A stretch of 64,000 bases of DNA. Origin: Picosynechococcus sp. PCC 7117 (GTDB lineage: Bacteria; Cyanobacteriota; Cyanobacteriia; Cyanobacteriales; MRBY01). This document shows positions 41,224 through 44,808 of the stretch, piece by piece (the first letter of the stretch is position 1; each line of letters begins with the position of its first letter). Under the pieces are notes generated by a model. It was not told where the DNA came from and did not search any database. It saw nothing but the letters and a program-made list of their open reading frames with translations. Position numbers and translations under genes: made by a program. The stretch is taken from contig NZ_CP016477.1 in assembly GCF_001693275.1 (NCBI RefSeq), positions 1,922,001 through 1,986,000 on the forward strand. The letters are read 5' to 3'.

Positions 41224-41331
41224 CGATTCATTAGGAGTTACTGATTCCCCATCGCTGCCAATCAGTTGAAGGAGCATCGAGCTTCGCAGTATTCTGGATG
41301 TCTGTTATATGAAGACTCTATAGAAATTTTT

Positions 41332-42549
41332 ATGTTTAAATATCGACGCTTGCTCCAGGGGGCGATCGCCTTTTTGACGGCAGTGCTGGTGATTGCCTGT
41401 AATGCCCCATCTCCTCCTACGGATGCCGGTAATAATAATGGCAATCTGGCAGAAATTCCTCTGGGAGTCGCCGTCGCCCAGACCAGTAATGTTGCCCTGT
41501 TTGGCCAAGAGCAGATCCTCGGCACCCAGATTGCGGAAACCTACTTCAACGAAAACGGCGGGATCAACGGTAAACCCCTAAAAATCATTCTCCAGGATGT
41601 GGCCGCCGATGAGCAGGGCGCCATCAACGCCTTTAATACCCTGATCAACCAAGATAAAGTGGTCGGTATCGTTGGCCCGACCCTTTCCCAACAAGCCTTT
41701 GCCGCCGATCCGATCGCCGACCGGGCCCAAGTTCCCGTCCTTGGCCCTTCCAATACCGCCGAAGGAATCCCGCAGATTGGTACATTTATTGGCCGAGTTT
41801 CTGCCCCTGTCTCGGTGGTTGCTCCCAATGCCGTAGCCCAAGCCCTGAAGCTCAACCCAGAACTACAGCGCGTTGCGGTTTTCTTCGCCCAAAATGATGC
41901 CTTTAGTAAATCAGAGACAGAAACCTTCCAGACGGCTGTGCAAGATTTTGGTCTGGAATTAGTCACGGTACAAAGGTTTCAAACCACCGACACTGATTTT
42001 CAAGCCCAGGTGACTGCCGCCCTCAATGTTCAACCAGATCTAGTGATTATTTCGGGGTTAGCAGCCGATGCGGGCAACCTGGTGAAGCAACTGCGAGAAT
42101 TAGGTTACAACGGCATTATTGTTGGGGGGAACGGCTTAAATACTTCTAATATTTTCCCCGTCTGCCAAGCAAAATGTGATGGGGTGTTGGTGGCCCAAGC
42201 CTACAGTGCCGAGTTAGATAATGAGATTAACCGCGCGTTTCGGGACGCCTATTTTCAACAAAACCAAAAAGAGCCGCCCCAATTTAGTGCCCAGGCTTTT
42301 ACGGCGATCCAAGTTTTTGTTGAAGCCCTCAGCAGCCTCGACGAAAAAACGCCCCTAGAAACTCTTGCTCTACCGGACTTGCGACGACAACTGCGGGACG
42401 AAATTTTTGCAGGTACCTACGTCACGCCTTTGGGTGAAATTTCCTTCACAGAGGAAGGGGAAATTGTCCAGAAGGAATTTTTTGTGGCCCAAATTGAAAT
42501 GGATGAATCGGGTCAACAGGGGCGTTTCGCCTTTATCGAAGGGAACTAG
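41332..42549 (+). CDS. Branched-chain-amino-acid-type ABC transporter substrate-binding lipoprotein
   Basis: Periplasmic binding protein of the LivJ/LivK-NatB-UrtA superfamily. A lipoprotein signal ends in LTAVLVIAC (lipobox cysteine), followed by a Pro/Asn-rich linker and the two-lobed fold: EIPLGVAVAQTSNVALFGQE, INGKPLKIILQDVAADEQGA, GIVGPTLSQQAF and ELGYNGIIVGGNGL. The start is ATG 41332 (405 residues); the frame is open 22 codons further up but without a signal peptide. No permease or ATPase gene is adjacent, so it must partner with proteins encoded elsewhere, or act as an orphan sensor. Confidence 0.87.
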   Translation: MFKYRRLLQGAIAFLTAVLVIACNAPSPPTDAGNNNGNLAEIPLGVAVAQTSNVALFGQEQILGTQIAETYFNENGGINGKPLKIILQDVAADEQGAINAFNTLINQDKVVGIVGPTLSQQAFAADPIADRAQVPVLGPSNTAEGIPQIGTFIGRVSAPVSVVAPNAVAQALKLNPELQRVAVFFAQNDAFSKSETETFQTAVQDFGLELVTVQRFQTTDTDFQAQVTAALNVQPDLVIISGLAADAGNLVKQLRELGYNGIIVGGNGLNTSNIFPVCQAKCDGVLVAQAYSAELDNEINRAFRDAYFQQNQKEPPQFSAQAFTAIQVFVEALSSLDEKTPLETLALPDLRRQLRDEIFAGTYVTPLGEISFTEEGEIVQKEFFVAQIEMDESGQQGRFAFIEGN

Positions 42550-42600
42550 GTCAAAGCAAGCATTCGGAGGGACACCTAATGGAAATTTTCCCTCCGACTC

Positions 42601-42833
42601 CCCTCAAGAGAAGATACCCTCTGCCCTCTGGACATCTCCCTCAAGGGAAGACACCCTCTGTCCTTTGGACATCTCCCTCAAGGGAAGACACCCTCTGTCC
42701 TTTGGACATCTCCCTCAAGGGAAGACACCCTCTGTCCTTTGGACATCTCCCTCAAGGGAAGACACCCTCTGTCCTCTGGACATCTCCCTCAAGGGAAGAC
42801 ACCCTCTGTCCTCTGGACATCTCCCTCAAGGGA
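42601..42833. repeat. 37-bp tandem repeat array (six units plus a partial)
   Basis: Six head-to-tail 37-bp units start at 42601, 42638, 42675, 42712, 42749 and 42786, then 11 bp of a seventh. Units 2-4 appear identical; units 5-6 share a T-to-C change (TCCTTTGG to TCCTCTGG); unit 1 is more diverged. Each boundary forms TCCCT-ca-AGGGA, a short hairpin. There are no spacers, so this is not CRISPR. The array fills the gap between the convergent binding-protein gene and acs and ends 10 bp from the acs stop. 37 bp is also the unit length of the LTRR repeats of heterocystous cyanobacteria; sequence relation is unknown. Confidence 0.95.
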
Positions 42834-42843
42834 GAATGGGGGG

Positions 42844-44808
42844 TTAGCCCCGGAGTTGATCGAGGACGCTGCGGTCTTCGAGGGTAGAAGTATCGCCCAC
42901 AATTTCCTGTCCTGCGGCTAGGTTTCGCAACAAACGCCGCATGATTTTCCCAGAACGGGTTTTGGGCATTACATCGGCAAAACGGATTTCTCCCGGACGG
43001 GCGATCGCCCCGATTTCCTTCACCACATGGGCCTTCAGTTCCGTGACCAGATCATCACTGGGACTGTAGGTTCCCTCAAGGGTAACAAAGGCAAATACCT
43101 CTTCTCCCTTGACTGGATCCGGCTTCCCAACCACTGCCGCTTCGGCGACGGCTGGGTGAGAAACGAGGGCCGATTCTACTTCCATGGTGCCGAGGCGGTG
43201 ACCAGAAACATTTAGGACATCATCAACACGCCCCATAATCCAGAAATAGCCATCCTGATCCCGGCGTGCCCCATCCCCTGCAAAGTAGAGGTATTGTCCA
43301 TCTTTTGGGGCGATGTGCTCCCAATAGGTAGACCGGAAACGTTCGGGATTGCCATAAACGGTGCGCATCATCCCAGGCCAGGGTTGTTTCACCACCAGAT
43401 AGCCGCCCTCGTTGTCGCCGACAGGATTGCCATCGAGATCGACCACTTCCGCCACAATACCGGGGAAGGGGAAAGTTGCGGAACCGGGTTTGGTAGGGGT
43501 TGCACCGGGTAAAGGCGTAATCATCACGCCGCCAGTCTCAGTTTGCCACCAAGTATCAACGATGGGACAACGCTCGCCCCCAATCACTCGGTGGTACCAC
43601 ATCCACGCTTCTGGGTTAATCGGTTCACCCACAGTCCCTAAGAGGCGCAGGGAGCTCATATCGTATTGGTTGGGGATGTCTTCGCCCATTTTGATAAAGG
43701 CCCGGATCGCCGTGGGAGCTGTGTAGAAAATGGTGACGCCATATTTCTGGATAATTTCCCAATAGCAACCGGGATTAGACGGACGGGGCGCACCTTCGTA
43801 CATCAAGACCGTTGCGCCGTTAGATAGGGGGCCATAGGTAATGTAACTGTGGCCTGTGATCCAGCCCACATCGGCACCACACCAGTACACATCTTCATCT
43901 TTAAGATCAAAAATCCACTTGGTAGTCATGTGAGTGTAGAGGTTATAACCGCCCGTAGTGTGGACAACGCCCTTGGGTTTACCCGTGGTGCCGCTGGTAT
44001 AGAGGATAAAGAGCATATCTTCAGCATCCATCGGCTCGGCGGGACAGTCAGCGGAGACTTCTTTTTGCAGCTCGTGCCACCAGTGATCCCGCCCGGCTTC
44101 CATGTGGACAGGCTCTTTGGTGCGTTGAACGACCAAAACATTCTCAACGCTGGGGGCATGGTGATCGGCGATCGCCGCATCTACTTGATCCTTGAGGGGC
44201 ACTGCTTTATCTTTGCGGAAGCCCCCGTCGGCGGTGATTACCAGTTTGGCTTCAGCGTCTTCGAGGCGACTGCGGAGGGCTTCGGCACTAAAGCCACCAA
44301 ATACCACGGTGTGGGGCGCACCAATGCGAGCACAGGCGAGGAGGGCAACAACGGCTTCCGGGATCATTGGCATATAAATCCCGACGCGATCGCCTTTTTT
44401 GACGCCCAACTTTTTCATCGCATTGGCAAACTGGCAGACCTCGTGGTGTAGCTGGGCATAGGTGAGGGTACGGGAGTCACCGGGTTCCCCTTCCCAGATG
44501 AGGGCGGCTTTATTTTTGCGCCAGGTTTTGAGATGACGGTCGAGGCAATTGTAGGAAATGTTAATTTTCCCGTTGACAAACCATTTGGCGAAGGGCGGTT
44601 GCCAATCGAGCACCTTGTCCCATTTCTCAAACCATTCCAATTCCTGCTCGGCGAGTTCCCCCCAAAAGCCTTCGGGGTCATTTTTCGCCCGGTCGTAGAG
44701 GGCTTGGTACTGGTCTAAGCTCTTGATGTGGGCCTCGGCAGCAAAGTCTGGTGCAGGCGAAAAAAGGCGCTGCTCCTGGAGGATGGATTCAATGTTTTGT
44801 TCGGACAT
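42844..44808 (-). CDS. acs: Acetyl-CoA synthetase
   Basis: AMP-forming acetate-CoA ligase: acetate + ATP + CoA to acetyl-CoA. The 654 residues carry [20 protein letters not shown] (P-loop), [16 protein letters not shown], and the C-terminal lysine motif [14 protein letters not shown], whose lysine is a known acetylation control site. It is convergent with the repeat array and the binding-protein gene. Confidence 0.97.

Follow-up and report, generated by a model that had tools for sequence, protein, structure and literature searches.

What is a head-to-tail array of short, near-identical units between the ends of two convergent genes, and how did it come to be there? We addressed this question for an array in the window, by which we mean the whole 64,000-nucleotide stretch of Picosynechococcus sp. 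PCC 7117 DNA analyzed here. The explanation that we regard as probable, taken as a whole, is that one module of a repeat dispersed between the genes of Picosynechococcus was locally amplified in tandem to give a non-coding array, and that this repeat folds back on itself and was expanded by slippage. Read in this manner, the array offers a way to study how unstable repeats emerge and spread, and is not a gene or a CRISPR-like repeat.

The array and its units

TRF detected a period of 37 with 97% matches, and the unit comparison resolved the array into six 37-bp units and 11 further bases, corroborating the preliminary description of six near-identical units and a partial one between convergent genes (Table 1). 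The array begins 51 bp from the end of the binding-protein gene, on which side the divergent edge unit lies, and stops 10 bp from the end of the acetyl-CoA synthetase gene. A 23-bp core pattern with ≤ 3 mismatches matched the window six times, always in array units, and found nothing in 100 shuffles. The middle units are identical, as had been described; the change thought to be shared by the last two units alone is found in unit 1 as well, which also carries the TCT loop. Given TCT in unit 1 and TCC in the sister species, the derived state is more probably the T in the TTT loop of units 2-4. The small hairpin described at the unit junctions is present as TCCC-TCAA-GGGA with four pairs, and a second hairpin of five pairs, TGTCC-TYT-GGACA, lies inside the unit. 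The complete 6-bp form of the junction hairpin (hereafter hairpin 2) occurs, within the array, only in the last module.

Table 1 Features of the array locus and the RAYT-like ORF found elsewhere in the same genome.
Feature	Position	Strand	Basis or remarks
37-bp tandem array	42601..42833	+	6.3 copies; TRF, unit comparison
Unit 1, divergent edge unit	42601..42637	+	3 of 37 positions differ from the consensus, 3-4 from other units
Units 2-4	42638..42748	+	identical, loop TTT
Units 5-6	42749..42822	+	identical, loop TCT
Last module (B)	42800..42838	+	arm 1 CCCTCT, mini-hairpin, arm 2 TCTCCC, loop TCAA, arm 3 GGGAGA
ABC-type periplasmic binding protein gene	41266..42549	+	Peripla_BP_6
Acetyl-CoA synthetase gene, convergent	42844..44808	-	ACAS_N / AMP-binding
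RAYT-like transposase ORF	L050:1144-1725 = G000:C1:552240-552821		NF047646 57.5 bits (cut-off 80), PF01797 24.7 bits

Two identities suggested by the appearance of the array receive almost no credence from us. The array could be a repetitive protein-coding ORF, as all three forward frames are open, in agreement with the preliminary description, and ORFs of 160, 102 and 60 amino acids are listed over it. However, the unit simply lacks TAA, TAG and TGA on the + strand, and 27.5% of composition-shuffled 37-mers are likewise stop-free in all + frames, so that the open frames mean little and are an uninformative by-product. Moreover, 37 bp shifts the frame at each unit, and the unit belongs to a dispersed repeat located mostly between predicted ORFs. 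The - strand has one TGA per unit. The other identity, proposed earlier from the unit length, is a cyanobacterial repeat of the LTRR or CRISPR type. The LTRR of Nostoc/Anabaena PCC 7120 are 37 bp long, and they are CRISPR-type repeats set apart from each other, not placed head-to-tail. The LTRR (csR5) sequence of Nostoc, given in PMC2408588, shares a short CCCT/AGGG palindrome with the array unit, but the similarity ends at that palindrome and the sequences are otherwise different: the local alignment score of 14 compares with a 95th percentile of 13 and a maximum of 18 among shuffles. The array units are contiguous and head-to-tail, without the unique spacers of a CRISPR array, and sister arrays have units of 38 or 41 bp. 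An Rfam search of the array returned only matches far below the gathering scores (mir-1323, whalefall-1), and ten repeat-bearing loci gave no match at the gathering score.

A dispersed family and the anatomy of its module

The preliminary description had proposed looking for the unit elsewhere in the genome, and this search revealed a family. In the PCC 7117 assembly (G000; 3.43 Mb, 6 contigs), a DNA search with the array matched six further places at E ≤ 0.001. A covariance model (R1), built from alignment A1 of 34 members from three genomes, gave 37 matches at the same threshold, six in the array and 31 elsewhere. All of them are on the main contig; the five small contigs C2-C6, 10% of the assembly, have no R1 match, an outcome with a chance of ~0.04 for 31 elements. 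Two of these small contigs match, in part, Picosynechococcus plasmids (PCC 73109, 8807, 7002, 7003) at ~79-91%. The other five genomes of the genus contain 36, 8, 30, 10 and 20 matches, so that all six genomes examined are matched. Across the order, 14 of 148 genomes matched R1 at E ≤ 1e-5, namely the six of the genus and eight outside it, and the latter matches are weak (best E 3.5e-8), marking weaker relatives in other cyanobacterial families. We typed the genomic surroundings of 28 of the 37 G000 matches by a crude ORF method, the rest being array units or low scorers, and the element overlapped a predicted ORF in four of the 28 loci, including the array, and otherwise lay between ORFs or across ORF edges. 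The exact unit pattern and a degenerate family pattern had no match in the genome_contigs collection, a result of little weight because these scans may leave out near relatives. A search of the open-licence literature listed no description of the family in Picosynechococcus.

The elements are unevenly spaced: 12 of the 31 non-array elements of G000 fall within 30 kb (2985-3015 kb; binomial P 8e-17 for an interval picked post hoc). This dense stretch (L008/L009, C1:2985000-3020000) holds housekeeping-like genes, encoding a TPP enzyme, a CemA family protein, argininosuccinate synthase, PmbA/TldD and OprB, and the aligned region of the congeneric species G002 (L044/L045) is dense in elements as well. 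Other recurring modules (among them GACACCYCTCTAGCTCCCCTCATAGGGGAGAA and pieces containing CCCCTCTTGAGAGGGG) are often interspersed with the module, for example at L008:3043-3294, in a mosaic reminiscent of a BIME.

The module consists, in order, of arm 1 (CCCTCC), a mini-hairpin, arm 2 (CCTCCC), the loop TCAA, and arm 3 (GGGAGG), where arm 1 mirrors arm 2, to which arm 3 is complementary. The mini-hairpin takes the forms GGCC-TNNC-GGCC, GCCC-TTT-GGGC, GTCC-TYT-GGAC, GCC-TTC-GGC and others, and more distant congeners have the arms CCTTCC/CCTTCC/GGAAGG. Among 90 distinct sequences, the loop between arms 2 and 3 is 4 nt long in 86, and that between arms 1 and 2 spans 7-25 nt and is 10-13 nt long in 88.

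To examine the stems, we used a genus alignment (A3; 34 rows, 32 distinct, six genomes) in which arm 1 was left out of the stem structure and its mirror symmetry was tested separately. Six of the ten stem pairs showed double changes, in 40 cells compared with 11.8 after shuffling (none of 500 shuffles as high), and slid versions of the structure gave two such cells at most. Further standard pair types were not above shuffles (8 vs 9.3 in A3, and 7 vs 6.2 in another run). The mirror test covered the 90 distinct sequences, from 103 model matches in 44 selected sources, one of which (L274) is of another cyanobacterial family. Arm 1 matched the reverse of arm 2 in 518 of 540 cells (mean 466 and maximum 477 after shuffling), with 36 joint agreeing changes compared with 10 after shuffling (maximum 17), while the direct arrangement had no joint changes and slid mirrors had one or two, neither beyond shuffling. 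A single triad (columns 3/45/88; CCG in 56 and TTA in 28), which tracks two sequence subtypes, supplies 28 of the 36 joint changes. Without it, eight joint changes are left compared with 0.9 after shuffling (maximum 4), and most of these eight are in the triad of columns 6/42/92, where the window array and its orthologue carry bases other than those of the family consensus. All three arms of the last array module are changed in the manner that a triad demands (C to T, C to T and G to A). Few independent events thus lie behind the mirror changes, which slightly lowers our confidence in readings based on the mirror, and the shuffle counts overstate the significance of these results because the rows are related and alignment A4 was fitted to the model. 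In short, the stems covary, and the mirror symmetry does so more weakly. The stem covariation could also stem from quasi-palindrome correction.

Folding sets the last array unit apart from the others. Internal array units have only four pairs in hairpin 2, compared with six in the last unit and in most dispersed copies. They fold no better than shuffles (z -0.70 and -0.59 for two units in the module register, -0.65 in the TRF register), whereas the last unit does (z -2.26). Because its internal units keep the four-pair hairpin and fold no better than shuffles, the array is for the most part made of weakened modules. RNA folds of the whole array gave z-scores of -2.2 and -3.0, which are expected of any tandem repeat with complementary arms and were not used as evidence.

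Copy-number turnover and the 3'-end alternative

To see whether the array changes in copy number, as the preliminary description had proposed to check, we compared G000 with G002, one genome per species. The orthologous window site in G002 (L012) has 4.1 units of 37 bp compared with 6.3 in G000, with flanks ~88-90% identical. With the edge unit set aside, the units of G000 have 0-1 differences over 37 positions and those of G002 have none, compared with 2-3 between the two species; that is, the units are homogenized within species. These results bear out the recent expansion by unit duplication read earlier from the units, and the contrary outcome named at that time, a fixed copy number and a sequence unrelated to any repeat, was not seen: the copies differ and a repeat family was found. 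Tandem copies in G000/G002 differ at four more orthologous sites (545282, 1/2.9; 869446, 1/2.2; 3013229, 2.2/1; 1838054, 1/4.5), the five sites having been picked for a visible difference and not as a random sample. Of the other sites compared between the two species, some differ by entire modules and some, 753586 for example, carry a single module in each. In the window array, its G002 orthologue and two other 37-bp arrays (L041, L042), internal arm 3 ends at GGGA and the last unit alone is complete.

We infer a step from the fold to slippage as follows. A module exposed as a single strand in replication or repair would fold back and stall the polymerase; slippage or template switching would then duplicate it, and the duplications would break inside hairpin 2, as the truncated internal arm 3 might indicate. 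Slippage expansion of a fold-back repeat is, as part of the overall explanation given above, the origin of the array that we consider probable. In E. coli, loci with triplex motifs show more variability than control loci, and slippage has been put forward as one cause (PMC4666352). The same source reports that duplex and not triplex forms with the complementary strand present, and that no triplex footprint was seen in vivo, both of which may weaken the fold-driven slippage reading of the array.

Could the array instead be a functional 3'-end element, terminating or insulating convergent transcription or shielding both mRNA 3' ends with its hairpins? Its closeness to two gene ends favors this alternative, and so do several features of the dispersed copies. 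After the 28 typed loci were merged by hand into 23 sites, the window site among them, seven of the 22 others had a convergent setting, compared with 11.7% of the intergenic length (P 0.010) and 15% of the gaps (P 0.037), and nine of the 11 co-directional sites had the element in gene sense (hand count; P 0.033). A run of at least four T within 13 nt after the match core followed 12 of 27 dispersed copies, compared with 7.1% of background 13-mers, and in two of these 12 (L076, L079) it stands behind an extra inserted hairpin; some dispersed copies could therefore, judged by this pattern, be intrinsic terminators. The window array, however, has no T-run after its hairpins, the combination of GC hairpin and T-run expected of an intrinsic terminator is absent from it, and no terminator-like site was found in 42300-43000. 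A terminator scan of the repeat-rich region L008 found 25 sites compared with 24.7 in shuffles, i.e., no enrichment. Nor is the element a fixture of the acetyl-CoA synthetase end: by eye, G001 has only other repeat modules there, and the stretches inspected in G003-G005 have no module. According to earlier work cited in PMC4666352, motifs of the PIT/TM type, discussed below, showed neither promoter nor terminator activity. We therefore regard a 3'-end function as unlikely, and the barrier to transcription suggested in the preliminary description, though it may exist, gained no support. Most likely, the array has no role and is simply an unstable stretch that is tolerated between two gene ends, although it might give mild protection to 3' ends.

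Likeness to known repeats and possible spread

Bacterial VNTR or minisatellite loci consist of head-to-tail units of variable copy number that undergo homogenization. The array resembles them in each of these respects, including a copy number that differs between congeneric species, but its unit belongs to a dispersed, structured family of which several members have expanded at different sites. REP and BIME are small, dispersed, intergenic palindromes that sometimes form tandem clusters and occur in Cyanobacteria among other groups (PMC3733652). The module is likewise small, dispersed, intergenic and palindromic. Unlike REP, it has no GTAG/CGTC tag at the hairpin foot in the consensus of 34 members, and no copy lies by a RAYT-like gene. 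Mobilization by RAYT was considered and, for the sole RAYT-like ORF of G000, rejected: its flanks carry a palindrome of its own, which bears GTAG and differs from the module. An 87% identical copy of this ORF is present in G002.

The closest likeness in architecture is to the intrastrand-triplex (PIT/TM) motifs, described by Holder et al. (2015; PMC4666352) with TM_ECO of E. coli and with high motif counts in Cyanobacteria such as Microcystis. Both have two Watson-Crick arms and a mirror-symmetric third arm, and both are GC-rich, dispersed and intergenic. The ITxF search used there looks for a third arm that mirrors one hairpin arm, which the mirror test found in the module, and for a stem of at least 6 without mismatch at 6, a length reached by the last array unit and by most dispersed copies but not by the internal units. 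The two differ in the third-arm loop, which is limited to 1-6 nt in ITxF and is mostly 10-13 nt in the module, where it is closed by a covarying mini-hairpin. Because the loop exceeds the limit and a covarying hairpin is added, we treat the module as working like the ITxF set and not as a member of it; from its sequence, the module appears to be built like a PIT/TM motif in which a separate stem closes the crossing loop. The passages of PMC4666352 consulted do not mention that the motif occurs in tandem arrays.

A similar architecture is found in another phylum, which we consider the interesting part of the finding. RIME elements are mentioned in S. meliloti (PMC2573895), and RIME-like repeats of Sinorhizobium and Rhizobium share with the module the order of the parts and a close sequence, CCCCCTCTGNCC-TGCC-GGNCATCTCCCCC-loop-GGGGGGAGA. 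They differ in having 8-nt arms and in often occurring as two inverted copies ~120 bp apart. In these copies arm 1 mirrors arm 2 over 8 nt, after which the agreement ends, and the arms provide no covariation because they hardly vary. A model built from Picosynechococcus only (R2; E-values are rough owing to a shortened calibration) recognized both groups at E ≤ 0.01, with 39 matches in S. fredii pSF45436b (best 6e-7), a record reached through BLAST, and 11 in S. meliloti pSymB (best 2e-7), which was not chosen by similarity. Most of these matches are CTCTG...CATCTCCC, which is also the subtype at the window locus. The Cupriavidus CH34 megaplasmid, Rhodococcus pRHL1, Mesorhizobium pMLa and pAQ7 had no R2 match. 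A plasmid BLAST with the array found no match, and one with a dispersed copy found a single Sinorhizobium hit (E 0.4), weak alone.

Viral contigs carry related elements. A core variant of the window unit with a 4-nt loop occurs in at least 120 viral-contig stretches with at least 252 matches; among the matches listed, from contigs selected by pattern, the one free stem position forms a Watson-Crick pair in 244 of 252, and + and - copies are often 119-123 bp apart (45 pairs). A pattern of the more usual Picosynechococcus subtype matched only two viral-contig stretches. Because the contigs were picked by pattern, R2 is the cleaner test. A 181-bp piece of one viral contig matched 177 plasmid records, and the ten genera listed among them all belong to the Rhizobiales.

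These likenesses allow a reading in which the Picosynechococcus repeat and the rhizobial elements come from one family mobilized in trans and spread horizontally, of which one copy later expanded into the array. This reading concerns the origin of the repeat and can go together with slippage expansion of the array. The R2 matches in two Sinorhizobium megaplasmids next to none in four other plasmids, their shared subtype, and the restriction of R2 at E ≤ 1e-5 to five of 194 sampled cyanobacterial genomes, two of them Picosynechococcus, are consistent with it. On the other hand, we found no shared mobilizer: the one RAYT-like ORF sits beside another palindrome, and the IS200-type transposase locus L049 was scanned for a motif alone. 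The weaker cyanobacterial relatives detected by R1 and the empty Mesorhizobium plasmid also speak against it, and short, GC-rich mirror or palindrome architectures can converge. We consider such spread improbable as the origin of the family; common descent and convergence of the cyanobacterial and rhizobial elements are both possible.

Given the architecture shared with the rhizobial repeats, elements that have been catalogued apart, phylum by phylum, may belong to a single class, and such a class would escape the published triplex search owing to its loop-size limit. In its widest form, the proposal would be that elements with mirror arms bridged by a hairpin, and so capable of forming a triplex, make up a single widespread class of intergenic DNA in bacteria, found in Cyanobacteria, Rhizobiales and lineages of unknown host, with the fold and not the sequence conserved and with tandem arrays as footprints of fold-driven replication slippage at such sites; we put this forward tentatively, as a conjecture that is rather less than probable. 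If the mirror arm is truly selected or mutation-templated, Picosynechococcus, a genus with tractable laboratory strains, would offer natural, orthologous sites of variable copy number, and the long-standing question of whether triplex-capable DNA causes repeat expansion in bacteria would be directly testable.

Two further sets of sequences carry elements of related form. The cyanobacterial genome G181 (L275; 7% contamination) has seven matches of rhizobial length, possibly on foreign contigs, and was set aside. A third contig set (IMG/VR, L281-L304) carries CCCCCTCTGTCC-loop-GGACATCTCCC elements, which have the same parts and a few mirror changes; by eye, some of them begin within a few bases of a stop-like codon, and L286 has four.
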